Assembly (NCBI GenBank): GCA_025352235.1
Contig: JANXTU010000324.1
Span: 1 to 33,952, forward strand
Source of the DNA: Fimbriiglobus sp.
Lineage (GTDB): Bacteria > Planctomycetota > Planctomycetia > Gemmatales > Gemmataceae
Length of the DNA: 33,952 nucleotides
Direction of reading: 5' to 3'
Position numbers and translations under genes: made by a program. Below, in pieces: positions 11,733-26,557 of the stretch (position 1 is the first letter of the stretch; the number at the start of each line of letters is the position of its first letter). Under the pieces are notes generated by a model. It was not told the origin of the DNA. It saw nothing but the letters and a program-made list of their open reading frames with translations, and did no database searches.

Positions 11733-13361
11733 ATGACCTCTCCGATCACACCCCTCGGCCGGTGGCGCTCCGACGGTTCGGCGCCGACCGTTCTCCCGGC
11801 CGAGGCCTCCGCGATCCTCGGCGATTTGCGCTCGACCGTTTCCGTAGTAGTTGGGGAATCGGGCCCCGCCCTGGCCCGCAGCGGATCGGGAAATTTCGGT
11901 ACGGGCCAAGTTGGCACGCACGACCTCCTGGCCCTCCTTCCGCCACTGCCCCCCGCCCGACTCGGCGGGACCGGTTTCGCCGTGGACCACGGCTTGAAAT
12001 ACCCCTACATGACAGGGGCGATGGCCAACGGCATCGCCTCTGCGGAGATCGTCGAAGCCATGAGTCGGGCGGGGATGCTCGGCAGCTTCGGCGCGGCCGG
12101 ACTATCGTTCCAGCGCGTCGTGCAAGCCGTCGAGCGGTTGCAGGCGAATCTTGGGGATCGCCCCTTCTGCATCAACCTGATTCACAGTCCGAATGAAACC
12201 GGCCACGAGATGGCCCTCGCGGAGTTGTTCCTGAGCCGCGGCGTCCGGCTGATCGAAGCCTCCGCGTATTTGGATCTCACCCCGGCGGTCGTTCGTTATC
12301 GCCTGGCTGGATTGAAGCGTCGACCGGATGGAACGATCGAAATCGGCAACCGGATCATCGCGAAGGTCTCGCGGGTCGAAGTGGCGACGAAGTTTCTCTC
12401 CCCGGCGCCGGAGCGGATCGTTCGGGAATTGCTGGCGGCGCAGCAGATCACCGGGGACCAGGCCGAACTCGCCGGCTCCGTACCGATGTGCGACGACCTC
12501 ACGGCCGAGGCCGACAGCGGTGGCCACACCGACAACCGTCCCGCCATCACGTTGCTACCGACGATGACGGCTTTGCGGGATCGCTTGCAAGCTCAGTTTG
12601 GGTTCGCCAAACCGGTGCGTGTCGGGTTGGCGGGTGGAATCGCGACACCGGCGAGTGTGGCCGGGGCATTCGCCCTCGGGGCGGCGTACGTCGTGACGGG
12701 CTCGGTGAACCAAGCCTGCATCGAATCGGGGAGTTCGGATGCCGTGCGGGCGATGCTGGCGGGTGCGGGACAAGCCGATGTGGCGATGGCCCCGGCCGCG
12801 GACATGTTCGAGATGGGCGTGAAATTGCAAGTGCTCAAACGCGGCACCATGTTCCCGATGCGGGCGCAGAAACTCTTCGACTTATACCGGGCCTACCCGG
12901 GTTGGGAAGCGATGCCCGACGCCGAGCGCGTCCTTGTTGAGAAGACGATCTTGCGACGTTCCTTCGATGATGTCTGGTCCGAGACTCGCGAGTTTTTCCT
13001 GAAGCGCGACCCGGTCCAAGTGCCGAAGGCCGAAGCCAACGCCAAGCACAAGATGGCCCTTGTTTTTCGCTGGTATTTGGGTCTGTCGTCGCGATGGGCC
13101 AATGCGGGCGATGCCGGACGCCAGCTCGACTATCAGGTCTGGTGCGGCCCGGCGATGGGGGCCTTCAATGAGTGGGCCAAAGGGAGCCACCTCGAAATCC
13201 CGGCGAACCGCACCGTGGTAAATGTTGCCCACAACCTCTTGTACGGGGCGTGCGTCGTCACCCGGCAAACGGCGCTCCGACAACAAGGACTCGAATTGCC
13301 GGCGGATTGGTTTCCGCTGCGTCCGATGGCCAATGATGTATTGTCGGATCGTTTGAATTGA
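11733..13361 (+). CDS. pfaD: PfaD-type enoyl reductase of PUFA/secondary-lipid synthase
   Basis: 542 residues, the size of PfaD/Pfa1. It is a stand-alone FMN-dependent TIM-barrel enoyl reductase that reduces the trans-2 double bond on the growing ACP-bound chain. Family marks: GFAVDHGLKYPYMTGAMANGIAS, NLIHSPNE, IEASAYLDLTPAVVRYR, GLAGGIATPASVAGAFALGAAYV at about 297-320 followed by TGSVNQACIESGSS (flavin phosphate site), then the C-terminal PfaD-only part with FFLKRDP and NLLYGACVVTRQ. It is the first gene of the synthase operon, as in myxobacterial pfa1-pfa2-pfa3, whereas marine gamma-proteobacteria have pfaD last. pfaA follows after 16 bases. ATG 11733 has no ribosome site; TTAACCCTAACT precedes it. 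The assignment is very secure; whether the final product is polyunsaturated is not shown. Confidence 0.96.
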   Translation: MTSPITPLGRWRSDGSAPTVLPAEASAILGDLRSTVSVVVGESGPALARSGSGNFGTGQVGTHDLLALLPPLPPARLGGTGFAVDHGLKYPYMTGAMANGIASAEIVEAMSRAGMLGSFGAAGLSFQRVVQAVERLQANLGDRPFCINLIHSPNETGHEMALAELFLSRGVRLIEASAYLDLTPAVVRYRLAGLKRRPDGTIEIGNRIIAKVSRVEVATKFLSPAPERIVRELLAAQQITGDQAELAGSVPMCDDLTAEADSGGHTDNRPAITLLPTMTALRDRLQAQFGFAKPVRVGLAGGIATPASVAGAFALGAAYVVTGSVNQACIESGSSDAVRAMLAGAGQADVAMAPAADMFEMGVKLQVLKRGTMFPMRAQKLFDLYRAYPGWEAMPDAERVLVEKTILRRSFDDVWSETREFFLKRDPVQVPKAEANAKHKMALVFRWYLGLSSRWANAGDAGRQLDYQVWCGPAMGAFNEWAKGSHLEIPANRTVVNVAHNLLYGACVVTRQTALRQQGLELPADWFPLRPMANDVLSDRLN

Positions 13362-13377
13362 ATTCGAATGCGATGGG

Positions 13378-16300
13378 GTGCTAGGTTTGAAATCCGAAAT
13401 CCGAAATCCGAAATCCGAAATCGGGTTCGTTCCTTTGGCCATCGTCGGCATCGGCTGCTTGTTCCCGAAAGCCGACGGGCTCGGCGCGTATTGGGCGAAC
13501 ATCAAACACGGCGTCGATTGCATCGGCGATGTTCCACCGACGCACTGGAACCCCGACGATTATTACGACGCCGATCCGAAGTCGCCCGACCACACCTATG
13601 CCCGCCGGGGCGGGTTCCTGACGCCCATTGATTTCAACCCGCTCGAATTCGGGATCGCTCCGCGTGACCTCGAAGCGACCGATACTTCGCAATTGCTCGG
13701 CTTGGTCGCGGCCAAGCAGGCGTTGACCGACGCGGGTATCGTATTCGATACTCCGGGTGGCACGGCGCGCGGCAAAACCTCCGTCATCCTCGGGGTCACG
13801 GGGACGCTCGAACTCGTCATTCCACTCGGCGCTCGGTTGGGCCACCCGAAATGGCGCGCCGCATTGAAGGACGCCGGCGTCGCGGACGACGTGGCCCAAG
13901 ATGTGGTGGAACGCATCGGCGAATGCTATGTCCCGTGGCAAGAGAACAGCTTCCCTGGCCTGCTCGGCAACGTCGTGGCGGGGCGGATTGCCAATCGGTT
14001 GGATCTGCACGGGACGAACTGCGTCGTCGATGCCGCGTGCGCCAGTTCGTTGAGTGCCGTCCACCTCGCGGCGATGGAACTGGCCACGGGCAAGGCCGAT
14101 GTCGTCGTCACTGGCGGGGTCGACACGTTCAACGACATCTTCATGTTCATGTGCTTCAGCAAAACGCCGGCGCTTTCGAAATCGGGCGAGTCACGGCCGT
14201 TCGACTCCAACGGCGACGGCACCGCCTTGGGCGAAGGCCTCGGCATGGTCGTGCTCAAGCGCCTCGCCGATGCGGAAGCCTCCGGGGACACCATCTACGC
14301 CGTGCTCAAAGGCATCGGCACCAGCAGCGACGGCAAAGGGAACGCGATCTACGCGCCGTCGTCCGAGGGGCAGAAACGCTGCTTGAACGATGCCTACGCT
14401 CGCGCCGGCGTGAACCCCGGCACCGTCGAGCTCGTCGAAGCCCACGGCACCGGAACGAAGGTCGGCGACGCGGCGGAAGCCACGGCCCTCACCGATGTCT
14501 TCCGCAATTCGGGGCACGCGCTCGGTCGACCGTGGTGCGCCCTCGGCTCGGTGAAGTCGCAGATCGGCCACACGAAAGCGGCAGCCGGTGCGGCGTCGCT
14601 CATCAAGGTGGCGCTGTCGTTGTTCAACAAAGTGCTGCCGCCGACGATCAAGGTGAATCGACCGGTCGATCCCCTGAACTCGCCCGAGAGCCCCTTCTAC
14701 GTCAACGCCCAGATGCGACCGTGGCTGCCGCGGATCGAGCATCCTCGCCGGGCGGGACTGTCGGCCTTCGGCTTCGGCGGCTCCAACTTCCACGCGGTGC
14801 TGGAAGAATACCGACCGGCGAAAATTGATCCGGACTGGGATGGCCGAGTCGAAATTCTCGCGGTGTCGGGACGGACTGTCGAAGGGTTGCTATCGGCATT
14901 CACGCCATTCGGCGAAGCGCCGACTTGGAATGAATTCGCCCGCGCCGCGGAAGCGTCCCGGGCGGCGTTCGATTCTTCGGCACCCGTGCGATTGGTCCTC
15001 GTCGCCCAGCGCGGCAAGACCGACCTCGCACAATTGGTCGCGCGGGCGAAAGCCCGGCTCACTTCGCAATCCGGTTCTCAAAAGTGGCAGACGGCCGAGG
15101 GGGCCTTCTTCGGCACTGGCCCGGCGGGAAAACTCGCGGTGCTGTTCCCTGGCCAAGGTTCGCAGAGCGTCGGCATGCTCCGCGAACTCGCTTGCACCTT
15201 CCCCGAAATTCTGGAGTCGTTGGATCGGGCCAACGCCGGACAACCGGGCGACCGCTTGAGCGATTTCATTTACCCGCCGACCTCGTTCGCCGCGGATTCG
15301 AAGTCGTTGCAGGATGAAGCTTTGAAAGCGACCGACATCGCCCAGCCGGCGCTCGGCGCGGTGAGCTACGGCGCCTACCGCGTGTTGAACGAAAGGTTTG
15401 GATTGAATGCGGATTGTTTCGCGGGGCACAGTTACGGGGAACTCCCGGCGCTCGCTGCGGCGAAGCGGATCTCGGATTCGGACTTCTACCGACTCTCGCG
15501 TCGACGCGGGGACTTGATGGCCGCGCAGCGCGTCGGCGATGCCGGCGCCATGCTCGCGGTGCTCGCCCCGCTTTCGGAAATCGAAGTCCGGCTGATCCCC
15601 GGCGTCGTGATCGCGAACAAAAACGCTCCATTGCAGACGGTGCTCGCCGGCAGCACGGCCGACATCGAGGCCATCGCGAAAATCTACGCGTCGCACAACA
15701 TCCGCGCCATCAAGCTTCCGGTTGCCGCGGCGTTCCACAGCGACTTCGTCGCCGAAGCGGCGCGGCCCTTCCGGCACGACCTCGATTCCGTTGACTTTGC
15801 GGCGGGGGCGCCGGTGTACTCGAACACCACGGGCTCCGAGTACCCGGCCGAGGCCGATTCTTGCCGCGATGCGCTCGGGCACCAGTTGGCAAAACCGGTG
15901 GAGTTCGTCGCTCAAATTCAAGCGATGCTGCGCGATGGGGTGCGGACATTTTTCGAAGTCGGCCCCGGCGGCACGCTCGCCAAACTGACTCAGTCAATCG
16001 TCACCGAAGCGGCACCGGCGGATGACGTCGAAGCCATCGCACTGGAATCCCCCAAGCATGCGGGGATGCTCGACCTCGCCCTCGCGCTGGCCAAACTCGC
16101 CGCGCGGGGTCACGCGGTCGACCTCGGCGCTTGGGAAGCGAACGGCCGTTGCCGCCCGGCCCCATTGCCGTCGAAGCCGATCATGACAGTCCCGATCGGG
16201 GGGGCGAACATCGTCCAACCGCGTCCCAAGCGTCCCGCCCGTCCGCCCATATCATCCTCGAATAGTTCGGTTCCCCCCTCGAAGTCGTCCGCAGGAATTC

Positions 16301-19300
16301 GCCCGATGAACGATCCGCAGTCGACCGAGTTGAGCCGGGCATTGCAAGTGACGCAGCAAACGCTCGCCGCACTCCAAAAGATGCAGGAACAGACGGCGCA
16401 ACTCCACAAGCAGTTTCTCGAATCGCAAGAGAGCGCCCAGCGCACGTTGCATCAATTGGTGGCCCAGCAACAATCGCTTTTCTTCGGGACTGCCGCTCCC
16501 GCGCCAGACCTGATTGCGTTCTTGCCGCGAGAGATCCTGCCGCCGGTCGCGATTCGCCCGGTTCCCGTTCCGGTCGCACCCGCCCCGAAACCGCTCGCGG
16601 TTCCCCCGCCACCGCCCGCTGCGAAATCGGTGCATCCCGGCGTCGCGGAAACTTTGCTCGCGGTGGTCGCGGAGAAGACCGGTTACCCGGTGGACATGTT
16701 GAATCTCGGGATGAGCTTGGACGGCGACCTTGGAGTCGATTCGATCAAACGCGTCGAAATTCTGAGTGCACTCCAAGACAAATTGCCGGCCGCGCCGGTC
16801 GTCAAGCCGGAGCACCTCGGAACGTTACACACTTTGCAAGACGTCGCCGATTTTCTGTCGATCGCGACCGTCCCCGCTATAGCGACGCTTTCTCCGAGCC
16901 GATCTGGTGCGAATGTCAGCCCGACCCGCGAAATGAGGATCGATCCAATCCTCTTTGCCGAAGCGCCGGCCACCCTCATCGGCCCGGTGACGTTCGATAC
17001 GGTCTTTCCTGCGGGGATCGAACCCGACGTTGCCGGCGATATCGCGGCAATCTTGCTCGCGGTGGTCGCGGAGAAGACCGGCTATCCGGTGGACATGTTG
17101 AACTTGGGGATGAGCCTCGACGGCGACCTCGGGGTCGATTCGATCAAACGTGTCGAAATTCTGAGCGCGCTCCAAGACAAGCTTCCGGCCGCGCCGGTCG
17201 TGAAACCCGAACACCTCGGGGCATTGCACACGTTGCAGGATGTCGCCGATTTCTTGGCAACCGGAGGCGGGGTCGCGTCGGTGCTGGTTCCGAAGACGGA
17301 GCCGATCTCGGCGATTCGGATGCCCGAAATCACCCCTGCGTTCCCTGTGGAGCCACGCCTGTTTCCCACGCGGACGATCGATGGGTCCGCAAGTGCGAAC
17401 CGGTCGGCTGCCTCGGTAGTGGCCCTCGATAATATCGACCGGAGTATTTTGCAAGCGGTCGATCTCGACCTCGCGGCTCCCCGGCCCCGATTGAAGGTCC
17501 CCGAGAATTCTGCGGTGTGGATCGTTTCGGGAGAAGATTCCCTCGGCCGCGAATTGGTCGCCCAATTCCAAAGCCGCAAACTCGAGCCGGAACTGTACTC
17601 TTGGACCGATCCGATCCCGACCGACGGTCGGCCGGTCGGTTTGGTGTTGATCCCGCCGATCGCGCCGGTCGCGGCGATCAACCGGACCGCCTTCCTGTGG
17701 GCGCAAGCCGCGGCGCCGAAACTGCGTTCGGCGGGCCGCGCGGCGTTCTTCGGGACGGTCGTTCAGCTCGACGGCGCCTTCGGCTTGATGGACCTGGCGG
17801 TGAACGCCAACCCCGCGCTCGGCGGTTTCGCCGGCTTGGTGAAAACGGCCCGGCACGAGTGGCCGGAAGTCGCGTGCAAAGCGATTGACCTCGCACCCGA
17901 CTTCGCCCGCGAAGCCCCCGCGGCCGCGGCGGTGGCCATCGCCGACGAGTTACTCTGCATCGGACCGGTCGAAGTCGGGATCAGCGAATCGCACCGTTGC
18001 ACGGTGGAACTGGCCCGCACTGTGCGCAAGCCGTCGAGCAAGCCGCTCCCCCTCGGCCCGAACGACGTCATCCTCATCACGGGCGGCGGGCGCGGCGTGA
18101 CGGCCGAAGTCGCCGCCGCGCTCGCGGAGACTTTCAAGCCGACGTTGGTTCTGACCGGCCGCACCTCGATTCCTACCGGACCGGAGCCGGCATGGATGTC
18201 CGTCGCGACCGACGAAGCGGGTTTGAAGAAGGCCATCGCCGAGCACCTCGGAGCCACGGCGACGCCCAAAAGTGTTTCGGAGATGTACCACAAGGCGCTC
18301 GCGCAGCGCGAGATCCGGAGCAACCTCGCCCGCATGGAGCGTGCCGGATCGAAGGTCGTGTACCTCGTCGCCAACGTGGCGAATTCGCGCCAAGTCGCCG
18401 ATTTGCTACATCAGATTCAAGTGAAACACGGCGCGATCACCGGCTTGATCCACGGGGCCGGGGTGCTCGCCGACAAGCGCATCGAAGATTTGACCGCCGA
18501 GCAATTCGACACTGTCTACTCCACCAAGGTCGACGGTTTACGGAACTTGCTCGATCACCTCGGCGGCCAAGAATTGAAGATGCTGATTTTGTTCAGCAGC
18601 ACCACGGCCCGCTTCGGCCGCGTCGGCCAAGCCGCGTACGCCGCCGCCAACGAAGTGCTGAACAAGACGGCCCAGGTCGAATCGCGGCGTCGGCCGAACA
18701 CCCGCGTCGCGGCCATTAATTGGGGCCCGTGGGACGGCGGCATGGTAACCGCGAACCTCCGGAAAGTATTCGAGAGCGAGGGGATCGGTATGATTCCGCT
18801 AACCGAAGGCGGTCTCTTCGTCATTCAAGAATTGAATTTGTCCGGCCGCGCGGCGGAAGTCGTCGCCCTCGGCAAGTTCCGCTCCGCGAAAGGCCATACG
18901 GCACCCAGCGGCGCGATCGCGTCGATCCCGCGAGTTGAGGTTCCGGCGCCGAACGCAGCCGCGACAGCCCCCCCGCCCGAAATGACCGCCGTCTTCGAAC
19001 GCACGATCGACTTGGCGACCCACCCCGTATTGCGTTCGCACGTCATCGACGGCCGCGCCGTGTTTCCGATGGTGCTCCATATGGAATGGCTCGCCCACGC
19101 GGCGTTGCACGGCAACCCGGGCCTGCTATTCCACGGCTTCAACGAAATGCGGGTGATGAACGGTATTCTGATCGACGAGGCCGTGCCCGCCACCGTGCGC
19201 GCGTTCGCCGGGCGCGGGACGAAGAGCGACAAATACTTTCTCGTCCCGGTGGAATTGCGCGGCCGCCGCCGCGATGGCCGCGAGGTCGTCCACTCCCGCG

Positions 19301-19848
19301 CGGAGGTGGTGCTGGCGTCTGCGTTGCCGAAGCCGCCGGCGCCGAACCGCGTCCCGGAATTGCAACCGTACCCGCATCCGCTCGAAGAAGTTTACCGGCA
19401 CTTCCTTTTCCACGGGCCGGAGTTGCGCGGCATCGAGCGCATCGAAGGCGTCGCTGAGGGTGCGTTCGCCGCGAGTGTCCACCCCGCGCCGGCCCCGGGC
19501 GAATGGATCGCGGAACCACTGCGGAACGCGTGGGTCGCCGACCCGCTCGTCCTCGACGTGAGCTTTCAAATGATGATCCTCTGGAGCTACGCGCAGCACG
19601 GGGCCGGGTCGCTGCCGTGCTTCGCCGGGCGCTACCGCCAATACCGCCGCGCATTCACGGCGGGCCCGGTGCTCGTGCGGCTGCGTATCACGCGTGACAG
19701 CGGCACGTACGCCCGCGCCGATATCGACTACCTCGATCCGGCCGACGGATCTGTGATCGCGCAGATCCAAGATTACGAGTGCGTCATCGACCCGCAGTTG
19801 AACCAAGCCTTCCGCCGCAACCAACTGGGCCCGCGCGCGAAGGCGTAA
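13378..19848 (+). CDS. pfaA: PUFA-synthase-like megasynthase PfaA/Pfa2: KS-AT-ACP-ACP-KR-DH
   Basis: 2156 residues. KS at about 18-478 has Cys221 (DAACASS), His356 (EAHGTGT) and His398 (GHTKAA), with TGGVDTFNDIFMFMCFSK typical of PfaA. AT at about 585-880 has FPGQGSQ, Ser685 (GHSYGE) and His787 (AFHSD). A proline-rich and then coiled linker (about 960-1080) leads to two almost identical ACPs with Ser1122 and Ser1255 in GVDSIKR. KR has GGGRGVTAE near 1570, Ser1741 and Tyr1754. A PKS-type double-hotdog DH has His1888 (HVIDGRAVFP) and Asp2060 (DVSFQ). All catalytic residues are present. The protein elongates and partly reduces the acyl chain; PfaD and the next protein supply ER and further DH. 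Start is uncertain: GTG 13378, TTG 13387 or TTG 13435. A heptamer repeat lies between these, and no ribosome site decides. Most PUFA-producing homologs carry five to nine ACPs; this has two. Confidence 0.96.
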   Translation: MLGLKSEIRNPKSEIGFVPLAIVGIGCLFPKADGLGAYWANIKHGVDCIGDVPPTHWNPDDYYDADPKSPDHTYARRGGFLTPIDFNPLEFGIAPRDLEATDTSQLLGLVAAKQALTDAGIVFDTPGGTARGKTSVILGVTGTLELVIPLGARLGHPKWRAALKDAGVADDVAQDVVERIGECYVPWQENSFPGLLGNVVAGRIANRLDLHGTNCVVDAACASSLSAVHLAAMELATGKADVVVTGGVDTFNDIFMFMCFSKTPALSKSGESRPFDSNGDGTALGEGLGMVVLKRLADAEASGDTIYAVLKGIGTSSDGKGNAIYAPSSEGQKRCLNDAYARAGVNPGTVELVEAHGTGTKVGDAAEATALTDVFRNSGHALGRPWCALGSVKSQIGHTKAAAGAASLIKVALSLFNKVLPPTIKVNRPVDPLNSPESPFYVNAQMRPWLPRIEHPRRAGLSAFGFGGSNFHAVLEEYRPAKIDPDWDGRVEILAVSGRTVEGLLSAFTPFGEAPTWNEFARAAEASRAAFDSSAPVRLVLVAQRGKTDLAQLVARAKARLTSQSGSQKWQTAEGAFFGTGPAGKLAVLFPGQGSQSVGMLRELACTFPEILESLDRANAGQPGDRLSDFIYPPTSFAADSKSLQDEALKATDIAQPALGAVSYGAYRVLNERFGLNADCFAGHSYGELPALAAAKRISDSDFYRLSRRRGDLMAAQRVGDAGAMLAVLAPLSEIEVRLIPGVVIANKNAPLQTVLAGSTADIEAIAKIYASHNIRAIKLPVAAAFHSDFVAEAARPFRHDLDSVDFAAGAPVYSNTTGSEYPAEADSCRDALGHQLAKPVEFVAQIQAMLRDGVRTFFEVGPGGTLAKLTQSIVTEAAPADDVEAIALESPKHAGMLDLALALAKLAARGHAVDLGAWEANGRCRPAPLPSKPIMTVPIGGANIVQPRPKRPARPPISSSNSSVPPSKSSAGIRPMNDPQSTELSRALQVTQQTLAALQKMQEQTAQLHKQFLESQESAQRTLHQLVAQQQSLFFGTAAPAPDLIAFLPREILPPVAIRPVPVPVAPAPKPLAVPPPPPAAKSVHPGVAETLLAVVAEKTGYPVDMLNLGMSLDGDLGVDSIKRVEILSALQDKLPAAPVVKPEHLGTLHTLQDVADFLSIATVPAIATLSPSRSGANVSPTREMRIDPILFAEAPATLIGPVTFDTVFPAGIEPDVAGDIAAILLAVVAEKTGYPVDMLNLGMSLDGDLGVDSIKRVEILSALQDKLPAAPVVKPEHLGALHTLQDVADFLATGGGVASVLVPKTEPISAIRMPEITPAFPVEPRLFPTRTIDGSASANRSAASVVALDNIDRSILQAVDLDLAAPRPRLKVPENSAVWIVSGEDSLGRELVAQFQSRKLEPELYSWTDPIPTDGRPVGLVLIPPIAPVAAINRTAFLWAQAAAPKLRSAGRAAFFGTVVQLDGAFGLMDLAVNANPALGGFAGLVKTARHEWPEVACKAIDLAPDFAREAPAAAAVAIADELLCIGPVEVGISESHRCTVELARTVRKPSSKPLPLGPNDVILITGGGRGVTAEVAAALAETFKPTLVLTGRTSIPTGPEPAWMSVATDEAGLKKAIAEHLGATATPKSVSEMYHKALAQREIRSNLARMERAGSKVVYLVANVANSRQVADLLHQIQVKHGAITGLIHGAGVLADKRIEDLTAEQFDTVYSTKVDGLRNLLDHLGGQELKMLILFSSTTARFGRVGQAAYAAANEVLNKTAQVESRRRPNTRVAAINWGPWDGGMVTANLRKVFESEGIGMIPLTEGGLFVIQELNLSGRAAEVVALGKFRSAKGHTAPSGAIASIPRVEVPAPNAAATAPPPEMTAVFERTIDLATHPVLRSHVIDGRAVFPMVLHMEWLAHAALHGNPGLLFHGFNEMRVMNGILIDEAVPATVRAFAGRGTKSDKYFLVPVELRGRRRDGREVVHSRAEVVLASALPKPPAPNRVPELQPYPHPLEEVYRHFLFHGPELRGIERIEGVAEGAFAASVHPAPAPGEWIAEPLRNAWVADPLVLDVSFQMMILWSYAQHGAGSLPCFAGRYRQYRRAFTAGPVLVRLRITRDSGTYARADIDYLDPADGSVIAQIQDYECVIDPQLNQAFRRNQLGPRAKA
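13389..13423 (+). repeat. Heptamer tandem repeat GAAATCC x5 at the pfaA start
   Basis: Four exact copies of GAAATCC and a fifth ending in G run from 13389 to 13423. In the KS frame they encode K-S-E-I-R-N-P repeats; on the other strand they read I-S-D-F-G-F-R, a peptide I recall from many hypothetical proteins in planctomycetes and related bacteria, so it is probably a dispersed repeat family. A heptamer is not a multiple of three, so copy-number change shifts the frame. Confidence 0.95.
16654..17256 (+). repeat. Direct repeat: two ACP units within pfaA
   Basis: Two 204-base units (16654-16857 and 17053-17256) encode 68-residue ACP cores that differ at one residue (Thr/Ala near the end). I count about 28 base differences by eye, nearly all synonymous. 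A 195-base linker of unrelated sequence separates them. Confidence 0.95.
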
Positions 19849-19864
19849 TCCGCAACGTACTCCC

Positions 19865-22800
19865 ATGAACCCACATCCCCCGAGCATCGCCATCGTCGGG
19901 TCGGCCGGCCGATTCCCCGGCTCCGGATCCGACCTCGGCCGATTTTGGACGAACGTCCGCACGGCGGCCGACTGCTCGCGCGAAGTGCCAGCGGGGCGTT
20001 GGCTGTTGCCGCCGGAACGGTGCTTCGACCCGCGCGTGGCGAACCCGGATACGGTCTATTCCACCCGGGGCTACTTCCTCGATCCTTTCGAGCCGGACAT
20101 CGCGGGGCTGGGATTGCCGCCGGAGTTGATCGCCGAACTCGATCCGCTGTTCCACCTCATTTTGGACGTCGGCCACCGGGCGTGGAAGAGCGCGCAGACT
20201 GCTAATATTGATCGGCGCAAAGTGGGCGTCATCCTCGGCAACATCTGCTTGCCGACGGACAAAGCCTCCGACCTCGCCCGGAGCTTGCTCAGTCCGAACT
20301 CGCCGCCGGTCCACCCGTGGAACCGCTACGTCGCGGGGTTGCCGGCCGGGGTTCTCGCCAAGGCGCTCGGGCTCGGCGCCGGGCACTTCACGCTCGACGC
20401 GGCCTGCGCCAGCAGCCTGTACGCGATCAAACTCGCCTGCGATGAATTGATCTCCGGCCGCGCCGATGCGATGCTCGCCGGCGGCGCGTCGCGACCCGAT
20501 TGCCTCTACACGCAGATGGGGTTCTCGCAGTTGCGGGCACTCTCGGTGTCCGGGAAATGCTCGCCCTTTTCCGCGAATGCGGATGGCCTCGTCGTCGGCG
20601 AAGGTTCCGGAGTCTTCGTTTTGAAACGGCTCGGCGATGCCGAACGCGATGGCGACACCATCCGAGCCGTTCTTCGCGGCTGGGGCCTGTCCAACGATAT
20701 CCGCGGCAACCTGCTCGCACCGTCGAGCGATGGCCAACTCCGCGCGATGCGAGCCGCCTACGCGATGGCCGGCTGGCAACCGACCGACGTCGGCATGATC
20801 GAGTGCCACGCGACCGGCACCCCCGTCGGGGATCGGGTCGAATTCGAGAGTTTGCGCGAGCTTTGGAACGCGCATTCGTGGACCCCGGGACAGTGCGTCA
20901 TCGGCTCGGTGAAAGCGACCGTCGGTCACTTGCTCACCGGTGCGAGTTCGGCGGCACTCGCGAAAGTGCTGTTGGCCATTGAAAACAAAACCCTCCCGCC
21001 GCAGGCGAACTGTGATGCGCCGAACACTCAGCTCGACTACGCCAACGGCCCGTTCCGGTTGCTGAAGGATGCGGAAGAATGGCGAAGCGTGGGCCCGCGC
21101 CGCGCCGCGATCAGCGGCTTTGGCTTCGGCGGCATCAACGCCCATTTGCTGATCGAAGAATACAAGCCCGAGTTCGCCGGAGTCCACGCCCCGATCGTGG
21201 TGGGCGGCTTCGATGCTCCACCTGTTGTTTCGGAGCCGGACAATACCCCCGTCGCGATCGTCGGCGTGGGCGCCCACGTGGGCCCGTGGAAGACCGCCGT
21301 TGAATTGAAAGCGTGCTTCCTTAGCGGTGGGTTAGCGCCATCGCCGGCACGGAAACTCAACGGCTGGGATCGCGCCCCATCGCCATCCCCCGCGGGGCAT
21401 TTCATCGAGTCGATCGACGCGCCGCTCGACCGCTTTCGCATTCCGCCGCGCGAAATGGAGGAGATGCTGCCGCAACAACTGCTGATGCTGCACGTCGCCG
21501 CGGAAGCGCTCGACGATTGCCGAGCATCGGCGGTCGATCGGATCGAGGAATCGGACATCCACACGGGCGTGTTCATCGGACTCGGGCTCGATCTCAACAC
21601 CACGAACTACCACCTGCGTTGGGCCGGCGATACGGAACTCCCAGCACTGACGGCCGACCGGACGATGGGCGCCCTCGGCAGCATCGCGGCGAGTCGGATC
21701 GCGCGGGCGTTCCACTTCGGCGGGCCGAGTTTCACCTGTTGCAGCGAAGAGACCTCGGCCGGTACCGCGATCGCGCTCGCCGTGCGTGCGTTGCGCCGCG
21801 GGGAACTGGACCGTGCCGTCGTCGGCGGAGTCGATCTCCTCGGGGATCCAAGACAACTGCTAGCAACCGAAGCTCGGCCCCTGTCCACTGAGGGCGCGGC
21901 CGCCGTCGTGTTGAAGCGATTGGCCGATGCGGTGCGCGACGGCGACCGCGTTTACGCCGTGATCCGCGGCGTCGGCACTTCCACCGGCGGCGACCCGACC
22001 GCACTCGAGACCGATGCCGCGACGTACGCCACCTCGTTCGTGCGCGCCTGCGCCGATGCGATGATCGACCCCGCGAGTATCGACCTGCTGGACGGAGCCG
22101 CGTCCGGCGCCGAGGGCGCCGACCGACCCGAAGCCGAGGCGTTGAGCGCGCTGCTGAGCACGACCGAACGCCCCTTTCCGTTGGCGATCGCGGCGAGTCG
22201 CTCCCAAATCGGGCACACGGGGGCCGCGTCGGCGATGGTGTCACTCGTGCAACTCGGTTTGGCACTGCACCACAAAGTCCTCCCAGCGACGCCCGCGCCG
22301 GAGCGGGTCACTCCGCACGACGGACTCTATTCCGCCCGGGGGCCGCGATTTTGGCTCGCTGATCGGGATGGACCGCGCCGGGCCGCGCTCGCCGCCACCG
22401 GCGCCGACGGTTCGTGCGTCCACCTCGTGTTGGAAGAAGTCGAATCGAAGCAGCCGTCAACGGAATCGCCGAATTTATCCGAAGGCTTGTTCGCGATCGA
22501 CGGCGGCACGGCGGCCGAACTGCAGCACAAGTTAACCTCGCTCTCCGAATGGTTGAAATCCCAAGAATTCGGAACAATCGCCGAACTCGCCGGCGACTGG
22601 TGGCACGCAAACCCGCCGCATTCGAATCGCAAACTCGGCGCGGCGCTGGTCGCGCGAAATCGCGTCGAACTCCTCGAGCAGATCGACTACTTGGCCGAGT
22701 GCATCGCCGATCCGACGGCCCGCGATTTCGGCCGGGAACTGCGGGCGAGTTTGCGGGATCGCGTCTTCTATTCCCCTGTGCCGCTCGGGCCGAAGGGGAA

Positions 22801-25800
22801 GATCGCGTTCGTCTTCCCAGGTTCGGGGAACCACTTCCCCGGCATGGGCCGCGACCTGAGTGCCGCTTTCCCCGAGGTACTCCGTAAACAGCAAACCGAG
22901 AATCTCTACCTGCGGGGGCAGTACGCCCCGGATAAGTTCTGGGCCGACTATCTCCCATCCGACACGACCGCCAAGCAGTTCCTTTTCGGCCAAGTCGCAC
23001 TCGGCACCTTCGTCAGTGACACCCTCGTGTCACTCGGCGTGACGCCAGATGCCGGCATCGGCTTGAGCCTCGGGGAATCGTCGAGCTTGTTCGGACTCCG
23101 TATTTGGACCGGCTGCGATGAAATGTTCCGCCGCATCCATGCGTCGAGTTTGTTCGGATCCGACCTCGGACCGCCCTACGACGCCGCCCGGCAGCAGTGG
23201 AACCTCGAAGACGTGAATTGGGTTTCGGGGATCATCTCGGCCTCGCCGGACGATGTGTCGTCGCACCTCCGCCCGACTTTGAAGGCGTTTTTGCTGATCG
23301 TGAACACGCCGACGGAGTGCGTCATCGGTGGTCTCCGCGCCGATGTGGAGCAGTTGGCGAAGGAGTTGGGCAAGAGTTTCTTCGCACTCTCCGGAGTCAC
23401 GCTCGCCCACTGCGAAGCGGGGAAGCCGGTCGAGGACGCCTATCGGAAGTTGCACACGCTGCCGGCAACCGCGATCCCCGGCTTGCAAGTTTTCAGCGGG
23501 GCCTGGGCGCGACCGTACGACGCGACGAGCGCCAACGCCGCCGATTCGATCACCGCCGGTTTAGTGAACACGCTCGACTTCCCGGCGGTACTCGATGCGG
23601 CCTACCGCGAGGGCGTCCGCGTTTTCATCGAAGTCGGCCCCGGCAACTCTTGCACGCGGATGATTGGACAATCGCTGGTCGGCCGCGCGCACCTCGCCCG
23701 AGCCATTTCGGTCGCCCGGCAAGATGCCCCGTCGAATATCCTGCGCTTGCTCGGTTCGCTCATCGCAGAACGGTATCCGGTCGATCTCGGCGTACTCTTC
23801 GGTTCTCCCAAGACCAACTCGGACTCGCCGAAGCGCACTGTCACGATCGCGGTCGGTCGACCTTCGCACGGGGTCGATGTCGACCGGACGCCGCCGGTGC
23901 CGGCTCTCCCTCCGGAACTGGTCCCGACGCCGAAATCGGTCCCGACACCCCCGCCGATCCGATTCGAGCCGCCAGAATCGCTCGTCCCAACGCCGGCACC
24001 GCGTTTGGTGGAAACGCCGGGACCTTGTGCGAGTTTCGAACCGCCCGCGAGACCGGGGTGGGCCGCGACCATTCTCCCGGTTCTCGCGGGCAGTTCGTCG
24101 ACTCAAACCGCCATCGCCGAAACCCACGATGTGTTCCTGCGCGTGCAGCAAAGCTTCACCCGGAGTTCGATCGCGACCCTGCAGTTCCAAAACGAATTGA
24201 TCCGGCGATTGCTGGGCGACGTCGGGATCGAAGACGTGGTGGTCGATCCGACGGCGGTGCCGCGCTCGCTGACCTTCGAGCAATGCACCGAATACGCCGT
24301 GGGCAAAATCGGCCGCGTTCTCGGGCCGCTGTTCGCCGAGATCGACGACTTCCCGACGCGCGTCCGTTTGCCCGAAGGGCCGTTGATGCTGGTCGATCGG
24401 GTGCTGAAGATCGAGGGCGAACCGAAGTCGATGACACGTGGCCGGGTCGTCACGGACCATACCGTCCGCGCCGATCGCTGGTACCTCGACAACGGCCGCT
24501 GCCCGACGAGCATCGCGGTCGAATCGGGCCAAGCCGACCTGTTCCTCGCCGGCTTTCTCGGCATCGATTTTGAAACACAGGGTCGGGCGGTTTACCGACT
24601 GCTCGATGCCGTGGTCACGTTCCACCGCGATCTGCCCCGCGTCGGCGAGCGAATCGAATATGACATCCGCATCGACGAATTCTTTCGGCAAGCCGACTCG
24701 TGGTTGTTCCGGTTCCACTTCGAAGGGACGATCGACGGCGAACCGTTATTGAGCATGGCCAAGGGGATCGCCGGGTTTTTTACGTCGCAGGCTCTCGCGG
24801 CGGGGCAGGGGATCGTCCACACGAAACTCGACCGGCAACCGATGGTCGGCAAACGCCCCTCCGATTGGAAAGACCTCGTGCCGTTCGAGGCGTGTTCTCT
24901 GACGACGGATCATGTGCGAGCACTCCATCGCGGAAACACCGCCGAGGCCTTCGGACCGCAATTTTCGCGATTTCAAAATCCGATGAAACTCCCGGCGGGG
25001 ATGCTGCGCCTCGTTGACCGCGTCCCGTTACTCGATCCGACCGGCGGTCGATTCGGCCTCGGCTTCGCCCGCGCTGAGTATGACATTCAACCGAAAGAGT
25101 GGTTCATCGAGTGCCATTTCATCGACGACAAAGTGATGCCCGGCACACTGATGTACGAGTGCTGCCTGCACACGCTGCGCATCTTCCTCATGCGGCTGGG
25201 CTGGATCGGTGAAGACGGCGCGGTGACGTGCGAACCGGTACCGGGAATTCAAAGCCGCCTCAAATGCCGGGGGCAAGTGCTCGATTCGACGAAACTCGTG
25301 ACTTACGAAGTCAGCGTAAAAGAACTCGGCTTCCGGCCCGAACCGTACTGCATCGCCGACGCGTTGATGTTCGCCGACGGCAAACCCATTGTCGAGATTA
25401 CCAACCTCTCACTGCGGATGAGCGGACTTTCTCGGGACATACTGGAACGCGGCTGGGAGGCCGCGAGACCCGATACCCTCCCCACGATCCCCGCATACTT
25501 GTACGACTGCTCGAAAATTATGGCCTATTCCAACGGCAAACCGTCCGAGGGATTCGGCGAACCCTATCGCATCTTCGACGCGGGACGGGTGATCGCCCGA
25601 TTGCCGGGGCCACCGTATCAATTCCTCGACGGCATCACCGCCGTCACGGGCGAGCCGTTTGTTTTGAAAGACGGCGCCTCGTGCGATGCGCGTTACGCCG
25701 TGCCGCCGGATGCGTGGTATTTCGAATCCAACCGTTGCGACCGTATGCCGTTCAGCATTTTGCTGGAGGTTGCCCTGCAACCGTGCGGATGGCTCGCGGC

Positions 25801-26557
25801 CTACTGCGGCTCGGCGCTGACCAGTGACAGCGACTTGTCATTCCGAAACCTCGGCGGGCAAGGGACGCAATTCTCCCCCGTCGGGCCGGACATCGGCACG
25901 CTGACGACGCGCGTGACGATGACCAAAGTTTCAAACTCCGCCGGCATGATCATCCAGCACTTCGACTTGCTCGTCCTCGCCGGGGAACGGAAGGTCTACG
26001 AGGGTGCGACGTATTTCGGCTTCTTTGCGAAGACTGCACTCGTCAACCAAGTCGGCATGCCACAGGCGAAGGTGCCGTACCTGAATGAATCGCAGAAGGG
26101 TGAAGGAGAACTGCTCCCGGACGGTGCCCCGTTCCCCGCGCCGATGCTGCGGATGGTCGATCAGATCGACGGCTACCTCCCGGCGGGAGGATCGAAATCG
26201 CTCGGCCTCATTCAAGGTCGCATCGCCGTCGATCCGGAGTTCTGGTTCTTCAAAGCCCACTTTTATCAAGATCCCGTCTGGCCCGGTTCGCTCGGTGTCG
26301 AGTCGTTCCTCCAACTGTTGAAGTACGTCGCGTGGATGCGCTGGGGCGCACCTCCCGTCGACGGATGGCAGACGGTTGCGCCGAATCGCAAACACGCTTG
26401 GACCTACCGCGGCCAAGTGCTACCGACCGACCGCGAAGTCGTCGTCGTGCTGGAAGTGACGGAAGCCGACGACGCGGCGAAACGCCTGACGGCCGACGGC
26501 TTCCTCACCGTCGACGGCCGGGTGATCTACCAGATGACCGGGTTCACGCTGGAGTGA
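19865..26557 (+). CDS. pfaC: PUFA-synthase-like megasynthase PfaB/C fusion (Pfa3-like): KS-CLF-AT-DH-DH
   Basis: 2230 residues. KS at about 5-440 has Cys181 (DAACASS), His315 (CHATGT) and His355 (GHLLTGA). A second, KS-like chain-length-factor domain at about 460-860 has Glu629 where KS has Cys (CCSEETSAG), so it cannot condense. An AT domain at about 980-1310 carries FPGSGNHFPGMG and Ser1068 (GLSLGES), as in PfaB. A proline-rich linker with an H-x2-FL-x2-Q helix leads to four hotdog units at about 1490-2230. Units 2 and 4 have the FabA-like histidines His1751 (CHFIDDKVMPG) and His2132 (AHFYQDPVWPG); units 1 and 3 lack it, so they form two pseudo-dimeric dehydratases. The order equals myxobacterial Pfa3, but no acyltransferase (AGPAT) follows. 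ATG 19865 is 16 bases after pfaA. Its stop abuts the stop of the convergent gene. Confidence 0.95.
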   Translation: MNPHPPSIAIVGSAGRFPGSGSDLGRFWTNVRTAADCSREVPAGRWLLPPERCFDPRVANPDTVYSTRGYFLDPFEPDIAGLGLPPELIAELDPLFHLILDVGHRAWKSAQTANIDRRKVGVILGNICLPTDKASDLARSLLSPNSPPVHPWNRYVAGLPAGVLAKALGLGAGHFTLDAACASSLYAIKLACDELISGRADAMLAGGASRPDCLYTQMGFSQLRALSVSGKCSPFSANADGLVVGEGSGVFVLKRLGDAERDGDTIRAVLRGWGLSNDIRGNLLAPSSDGQLRAMRAAYAMAGWQPTDVGMIECHATGTPVGDRVEFESLRELWNAHSWTPGQCVIGSVKATVGHLLTGASSAALAKVLLAIENKTLPPQANCDAPNTQLDYANGPFRLLKDAEEWRSVGPRRAAISGFGFGGINAHLLIEEYKPEFAGVHAPIVVGGFDAPPVVSEPDNTPVAIVGVGAHVGPWKTAVELKACFLSGGLAPSPARKLNGWDRAPSPSPAGHFIESIDAPLDRFRIPPREMEEMLPQQLLMLHVAAEALDDCRASAVDRIEESDIHTGVFIGLGLDLNTTNYHLRWAGDTELPALTADRTMGALGSIAASRIARAFHFGGPSFTCCSEETSAGTAIALAVRALRRGELDRAVVGGVDLLGDPRQLLATEARPLSTEGAAAVVLKRLADAVRDGDRVYAVIRGVGTSTGGDPTALETDAATYATSFVRACADAMIDPASIDLLDGAASGAEGADRPEAEALSALLSTTERPFPLAIAASRSQIGHTGAASAMVSLVQLGLALHHKVLPATPAPERVTPHDGLYSARGPRFWLADRDGPRRAALAATGADGSCVHLVLEEVESKQPSTESPNLSEGLFAIDGGTAAELQHKLTSLSEWLKSQEFGTIAELAGDWWHANPPHSNRKLGAALVARNRVELLEQIDYLAECIADPTARDFGRELRASLRDRVFYSPVPLGPKGKIAFVFPGSGNHFPGMGRDLSAAFPEVLRKQQTENLYLRGQYAPDKFWADYLPSDTTAKQFLFGQVALGTFVSDTLVSLGVTPDAGIGLSLGESSSLFGLRIWTGCDEMFRRIHASSLFGSDLGPPYDAARQQWNLEDVNWVSGIISASPDDVSSHLRPTLKAFLLIVNTPTECVIGGLRADVEQLAKELGKSFFALSGVTLAHCEAGKPVEDAYRKLHTLPATAIPGLQVFSGAWARPYDATSANAADSITAGLVNTLDFPAVLDAAYREGVRVFIEVGPGNSCTRMIGQSLVGRAHLARAISVARQDAPSNILRLLGSLIAERYPVDLGVLFGSPKTNSDSPKRTVTIAVGRPSHGVDVDRTPPVPALPPELVPTPKSVPTPPPIRFEPPESLVPTPAPRLVETPGPCASFEPPARPGWAATILPVLAGSSSTQTAIAETHDVFLRVQQSFTRSSIATLQFQNELIRRLLGDVGIEDVVVDPTAVPRSLTFEQCTEYAVGKIGRVLGPLFAEIDDFPTRVRLPEGPLMLVDRVLKIEGEPKSMTRGRVVTDHTVRADRWYLDNGRCPTSIAVESGQADLFLAGFLGIDFETQGRAVYRLLDAVVTFHRDLPRVGERIEYDIRIDEFFRQADSWLFRFHFEGTIDGEPLLSMAKGIAGFFTSQALAAGQGIVHTKLDRQPMVGKRPSDWKDLVPFEACSLTTDHVRALHRGNTAEAFGPQFSRFQNPMKLPAGMLRLVDRVPLLDPTGGRFGLGFARAEYDIQPKEWFIECHFIDDKVMPGTLMYECCLHTLRIFLMRLGWIGEDGAVTCEPVPGIQSRLKCRGQVLDSTKLVTYEVSVKELGFRPEPYCIADALMFADGKPIVEITNLSLRMSGLSRDILERGWEAARPDTLPTIPAYLYDCSKIMAYSNGKPSEGFGEPYRIFDAGRVIARLPGPPYQFLDGITAVTGEPFVLKDGASCDARYAVPPDAWYFESNRCDRMPFSILLEVALQPCGWLAAYCGSALTSDSDLSFRNLGGQGTQFSPVGPDIGTLTTRVTMTKVSNSAGMIIQHFDLLVLAGERKVYEGATYFGFFAKTALVNQVGMPQAKVPYLNESQKGEGELLPDGAPFPAPMLRMVDQIDGYLPAGGSKSLGLIQGRIAVDPEFWFFKAHFYQDPVWPGSLGVESFLQLLKYVAWMRWGAPPVDGWQTVAPNRKHAWTYRGQVLPTDREVVVVLEVTEADDAAKRLTADGFLTVDGRVIYQMTGFTLE

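Follow-up and report, generated by a model that had tools for sequence, protein, structure and literature searches.

Type I pfa clusters are defined by their ketoacyl synthase (KS) phylogeny and by the fusion of pfaB with pfaC; they are found in Geobacter and its relatives and in Gemmata obscuriglobus and have been proposed to supply an olefin precursor (Shulse & Allen 2011, PMC3098273). One Type I organism, G. bemidjiensis, produces hentriacontanonaene (C31:9), and the proposal was extended to planctomycetes (PMC3098273). In G. bemidjiensis the pfa and ole genes form a tandem cluster, AGPAT being a feature of the myxobacterial type (PMC4882568), and in Escherichia coli carrying Shewanella genes OleA draws acyl groups from the Pfa acyl carrier proteins (ACPs), giving a 31:8 ketone (PMC6463001). 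A 2016 review knew of no aerobic bacterium making such compounds via Pfa plus Ole (PMC4882568), a statement that in our view sits awkwardly with the myxobacterial producers of polyunsaturated fatty acids (PUFAs) cited there, and in 2025 the activity and product of Gemmata-like Pfa synthases were still termed unconfirmed (PMC11837533). Here we analyze a pfa cluster of a Gemmataceae planctomycete, Fimbriiglobus sp., located on the 33,952-nucleotide contig JANXTU010000324.1 (the window), which is contig C235 of a 5.49-Mb metagenome-assembled genome (MAG) of 613 contigs. Judged by its sequence, this is a Type I pfa cluster encoding a complete three-gene synthase predicted to make polyunsaturated chains, and we consider it likely, with a probability of about 0.8, that it hands polyunsaturated acyl-ACP to OleA for the formation of a C31:9-like polyene hydrocarbon. 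This reading builds on the domain anatomy, the intact motifs, the clade of the cluster, the adjacency of ole genes in its relatives, and the presence of ole and phosphopantetheinyl transferase (PPTase) genes in the same genome.

The cluster consists of pfaD, a pfaA homologue and a homologue of the pfaBC fusion (pfaC below), all on the + strand, each a full-length open reading frame (ORF), with intergenic gaps of 16 bases apiece (13362-13377 and 19849-19864). The one-strand order given by the initial annotation, namely, PfaD, then KS-acyltransferase (AT)-ACP-ACP-ketoreductase (KR)-dehydratase (DH), then KS-chain-length factor (CLF)-AT-DH-DH, was borne out by these ORFs, whose features are listed here.

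11733..13361, +, pfaD homologue, enoyl reductase, 542 aa (TIGR02814, 642 bits, cut-off 449)
13378..19848, +, pfaA homologue, KS-AT-ACP-ACP-KR-DH, 2156 aa, GTG start (TIGR02813, 1391 bits, cut-off 1010; Pfam domains)
13423..14817, +, PfaA KS, active Cys at residue 220 (domain match, motif, KS tree)
15142..16104, +, PfaA AT (malonyl), GHSYG motif (domain match, motif)
16648..16857, +, ACP 1, GVDSIK (PP-binding match, motif)
17041..17259, +, ACP 2, GVDSIK (PP-binding match, motif)
18070..18735, +, PfaA KR (PF08659)
18979..19782, +, PfaA DH, of the polyketide synthase (PKS) type, HxxxGxxxxP and DxxxQ present (PF21089/PF14765, motif)
19865..26557, +, pfaC (pfaBC-fusion) homologue, KS-CLF-AT-DH-DH, 2230 aa, without C-terminal extension (domain matches)
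19883..21169, +, PfaC KS, DAACASS (domain match, motif)
21230..22429, +, CLF, Glu where the active Cys is expected, as in Moritella PfaC, PDB 6riw (alignment)
22790..23674, +, PfaB-like AT, GLSLGE (TIGR02816, 75 bits, below the family cut-off of 144)
24185..25474, +, DH1, double hot-dog, the second half being catalytic (PF07977, alignment)
25475..26554, +, DH2, double hot-dog, the second half being catalytic, reaching the protein end (PF07977, alignment)

All of the active-site residues are present, namely, C-H-H of the KS, the serine of the AT, the serines of both ACPs and the histidine of the DH. The domain scan found two ketoacyl synthase units in the third protein, and this protein carries pfaB and pfaC in the fused KS-CLF-AT-DH-DH form by which Type I is defined.

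The tree of PfaA KS domains put the window into a clade of 25 Pfa sequences (support 99/98) from planctomycetes, Geobacteraceae, betaproteobacteria and acidobacteria, four of them from Geobacteraceae, and the window thus groups with the Geobacteraceae Type I KS. The KS of the AGPAT-bearing Azospirillum homologue, which stands in for the AGPAT type, lay outside this clade, and a clade uniting it with the window was rejected (p-AU 3e-14). The KS-CLF tree gave a clade of 29 sequences (support 99), leaving Moritella, Persicobacter, Streptomyces and Azospirillum outside; this tree was obtained by a quick method and contains several compositional outliers, which makes its deep order less certain, and Moritella 6riw is its single marine representative. 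Modular PKS and enediyne outgroups were left out of the KS tree, their long branches having spoiled an earlier version, and the trees are also free of myxobacterial, Hgl, Shewanella PfaA, Gemmata obscuriglobus and G. bemidjiensis sequences, the last two being represented by close relatives. The nearest named relative was a Fimbriiglobus MAG (Gemmataceae), its PfaA KS being 93% identical and the best-matching segment of its PfaC DH region 82%. The KS and CLF phylogeny that the initial annotation had proposed as a check groups the cluster with Geobacteraceae and other planctomycetes and separates it from the AGPAT-type, marine and actinobacterial synthases. Its idea of a secondary-lipid synthase of a distinct subtype held insofar as the synthase is of the Pfa type and stands apart from the AGPAT-ended and marine types in both trees, but the subtype is not new, since it is the published Type I (PMC3098273).

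Several other classes did not fit. An ordinary modular type I PKS is ruled out by the CLF, by the TIGR02813 and TIGR02814 matches above cut-off and by the position of the KS within the Pfa clade; a heterocyst glycolipid synthase (HglE/Type F, with an HglC-like KS-CLF-AT lacking DH) does not agree with the two FabA-like DHs, nor a marine Type A/B pfaABCDE cluster with the absence of a separate pfaB and a pfaD that is not last. The myxobacterial AGPAT type (Type L) does not apply either, there being no C-terminal AGPAT and no grouping of the KS with the AGPAT type, as represented by Azospirillum. The initial annotation was to be withdrawn if the KS grouped with ordinary type I PKSs or if a linked AGPAT turned up; neither was observed, the KS lying in the Pfa clade and PF01553 being absent from the window PfaC. 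Plasmid searches returned only other types. PF01553 ends the PfaC homologue on a plasmid of Azospirillum lipoferum (L173 10734-19274), and AGPAT is thus not restricted to myxobacteria.

The lack of a terminal acyltransferase, noted from the outset, was confirmed, since PF01553 was not found in the window PfaC and zero residues follow DH2. This negative result has a positive control, because the same scan detects AGPAT in the Azospirillum homologue (residues 2570-2712), which runs on for a further 685 residues. In planctomycete and Geomonas relatives, PfaC ends at the window's end point or shortly past it, and among the relatives checked none had an AGPAT-terminated PfaC. Recent loss was rejected, as every relative examined ends at about the same place, and by this comparison the absence of AGPAT is the usual condition in the clade; as the cluster belongs to an already described group, its lack of an acyltransferase is nothing out of the ordinary. 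The count of only two ACPs proved equally sound. The two PP-binding domains, both with GVDSIK, are encoded by repeats with a 399-nt period and about 75 to 95% DNA likeness, and the units differ enough (longest exact run, 29 nt) to make a collapsed repeat unlikely. Two is also the commonest number (20 of the 39 relatives with a readable ACP region, the window included), and the finished genome of Limnoglobus roseus has two as well, so that collapse during assembly was rejected.

The surroundings of pfa in the relatives point to the ole genes. Of the 76 loci that could be assessed, the window and 75 from named relatives, 65 show an oleA start at most 2.5 kb away on the downstream side of pfaC; the window belongs to the other 11. 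In the linked loci oleB, oleC and an OleD-like gene mostly come next after oleA, and other Gemmataceae are among the relatives with oleABC(D) directly after pfaC. Across 392 genomes of the planctomycete phylum, OleC scored above cut-off in 48 of the 53 PfaD-positive genomes versus 96 of the 339 PfaD-negative ones (Fisher p 2e-18, kinship ignored), and PfaD and OleC lie within 25 kb of each other in about 20 of these 48. The five PfaD-positive exceptions comprise two PKS-associated PfaD loci, the window's genome, where a contig end cuts oleC, one genome with OleA and no full OleC, and one without a clear OleA.

In the window's own genome the ole genes are split over contigs: C75 encodes the C terminus of OleA, OleB and the N-terminal part of OleC, the end of C534 the N terminus of OleA, and C335 a C-terminal piece of OleD (66% identity). 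As in Type I, oleA, oleB, oleC and an oleD fragment thus occur in the same genome as pfa. On C75, a leucine-rich-repeat gene lies between oleA and oleB (L062 2173-3195), and oleA-oleB gaps of similar size are seen in Limnoglobus (L067) and in the Fimbriiglobus MAG (L200). In the latter, oleA-B-C-D lie together on one contig, away from pfa, and this separation of pfa and ole in the two genomes is the only distinctive point of the system. The genome search recommended by the initial annotation also recovered an Sfp-type PPTase of 222 aa on C524, not adjacent to pfa, with the P1a motif DGKP, the PUFA-type P1b motif FNMSH and a putative P0 motif, LRSALA, one residue off hRxhLS. The PPTase that goes with Type I clusters carries the PUFA motifs P0, P1a and P1b and is often encoded next to pfa.

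Type I-like pfa-ole operons (L076, L093, L106, L110, L129, L196, L198) were also seen in MAGs labelled Elusimicrobia, Acidobacteria, Verrucomicrobiales/Opitutus and Betaproteobacteria, as well as in further genomes of the class to which the betaproteobacterial MAG belongs, a spread wider than the Type I listing of the 2011 survey. In 369 genomes of that class no stand-alone marine PfaB was found, the two matches above cut-off sitting in ORFs of more than 2400 aa. Candidatus Uabimicrobium amorphum (L121) has the order pfaA-pfaC-oleA-oleB-oleC-oleD-like-pfaD, with pfaD after the ole genes. Three closed or near-closed genomes of one class (L039, L040, L041) resemble Type J in having PfaD-PfaA, with 2, 3 and 5 ACPs, and no PfaC within the 20 kb inspected; they encode OleC elsewhere, and their KS falls inside the same large clade as the window's.

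In the pathway that we propose, PfaD, PfaA and the PfaBC fusion would build a polyunsaturated acyl chain on the two tandem ACPs, which the unlinked Sfp-type PPTase would activate. There would be no chain transfer to glycerol by a fused AGPAT; OleA would take the polyunsaturated acyl-ACP directly and condense two of them (16:4 by analogy) head-to-head, and OleD, OleC and OleB would turn its product into a very long, hentriacontanonaene (C31:9)-like polyene hydrocarbon. Neither AGPAT nor a thioesterase would be needed, because the acyl-ACP would go to OleA. Chain length and hand-over to OleA are predictions, and C31:9 is suggested by analogy. The literature searched yielded no C31:9 data for planctomycetes; reports of C31:9 in planctomycete species descriptions may exist and carry no weight in this reading. 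The initial annotation had instead suggested offloading by an unlinked acyltransferase and a novel product chain. OleA is the better candidate, because the relatives checked lack AGPAT and mostly carry oleABC(D) right after pfaC, and newness of the product is unsupported, Type I having already been proposed to supply an olefin precursor (PMC3098273).

Some observations weigh against transfer to OleA. Since pfa and ole are not adjacent in the window's genome or in its nearest relative, co-regulation is not given by linkage, and since contig ends break oleA, oleC and oleD in this MAG, the integrity of the ole genes is deduced from the relative. Moreover, planctomycetes carry ole far more often than pfa, so that Ole can function where Pfa is absent. 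The lack of linkage in this lineage would suit a synthase whose PUFA (eicosapentaenoic acid-, arachidonic acid- or 18-carbon-like) is put into membrane lipids by an unlinked PlsC-type acyltransferase or released by a thioesterase; Ole would then draw its substrate from ordinary fatty acid synthesis. Every domain required for PUFA synthesis is present, and in marine Type A/B producers hydrocarbon is formed alongside PUFA (PMC6463001), but we regard this alternative as unlikely, given that neither the window protein nor the relatives checked have a fused AGPAT, that oleABC(D) stands right after pfaC in most relatives, other Gemmataceae included, and that Type I includes a C31:9 producer, G. bemidjiensis (PMC3098273). 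It is more doubtful still that the pfa-ole separation marks a changed use in the Fimbriiglobus lineage, whereby the synthase would also, or only, feed a membrane lipid via an unrecognised transferase and yield a new planctomycete polyunsaturated lipid.

The resemblance to myxobacterial gene order remarked on in the initial annotation is real, gene and domain order being those of Aetherobacter Pfa1-3 except for AGPAT (PMC8436480), and the AGPAT-bearing Azospirillum homologue forms the sister branch in the KS and KS-CLF trees. Nevertheless, a standard Type L-like PUFA synthase whose terminal acyltransferase was lost or truncated is highly improbable, since in all of the relatives with which the window groups PfaC stops at roughly the same residue past DH2 and the clade with the Azospirillum KS was rejected. 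That the cluster is nonfunctional or misassembled, for which its origin from a 613-contig MAG could speak, is hardly credible in view of the three full-length ORFs, the intact catalytic motifs, the consistent GC content and the identical architecture in an independent MAG with 93% KS identity.

Outside the cluster, a gamma-glutamyltranspeptidase gene upstream and a family-5 solute-binding protein gene downstream, both on the opposite strand, are unrelated to pfa. At the 5' end of pfaA, the heptanucleotide AAATCCG is repeated in tandem about 4 to 5 times (window 13389-13421), which makes the true pfaA start uncertain. A degenerate heptanucleotide repeat occupies the equivalent position in the Fimbriiglobus MAG (L208), and the exact 23-base form has a single further genomic occurrence, on C477. 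The repeat could act as a minor switch of pfaA expression or be no more than one copy of a dispersed element.

Taken together, the anatomy that seemed unusual is the norm of an already described group, and the window adds one further Type I member and one case of pfa-ole separation. The remaining interest lies in this separation and in the Gemmata-type product, a question that lipid analysis can address directly in Limnoglobus roseus and Zavarzinella formosa, two cultured Gemmataceae that carry pfa-ole operons. With marine pfaABCDE clusters (Types A and B; Shewanella, Moritella) the window shares the predicted enzyme activities and a KS-CLF alignable to Moritella PfaC PDB 6riw, but it has PfaD first rather than last, no separate PfaB, 2 ACPs instead of 4 to 6, and a different KS-CLF branch. 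As in Type J of Planctomyces limnophilus, PfaD is followed by PfaA; unlike Type J, which consists of PfaD-PfaA only, the window has PfaC. Pfa1-Pfa3 of Aetherobacter and Minicystis (Type L according to PMC4882568) likewise have PfaD first, then KS-MAT-ACPn-KR-DH and KS-CLF-AT-DH-DH, and an unlinked PPTase, whereas the window has no terminal AGPAT and its clade excludes the AGPAT-bearing Azospirillum homologue. The closest match is Type I of G. bemidjiensis and Gemmata obscuriglobus, with which the window shares the pfaBC fusion, the KS and KS-CLF clade, the PfaD-PfaA-PfaBC order, the absence of AGPAT, and ole genes in the genome, together with a candidate PUFA-type PPTase; it differs in that ole and the PPTase lie away from pfa, as ole also does in the Fimbriiglobus MAG.

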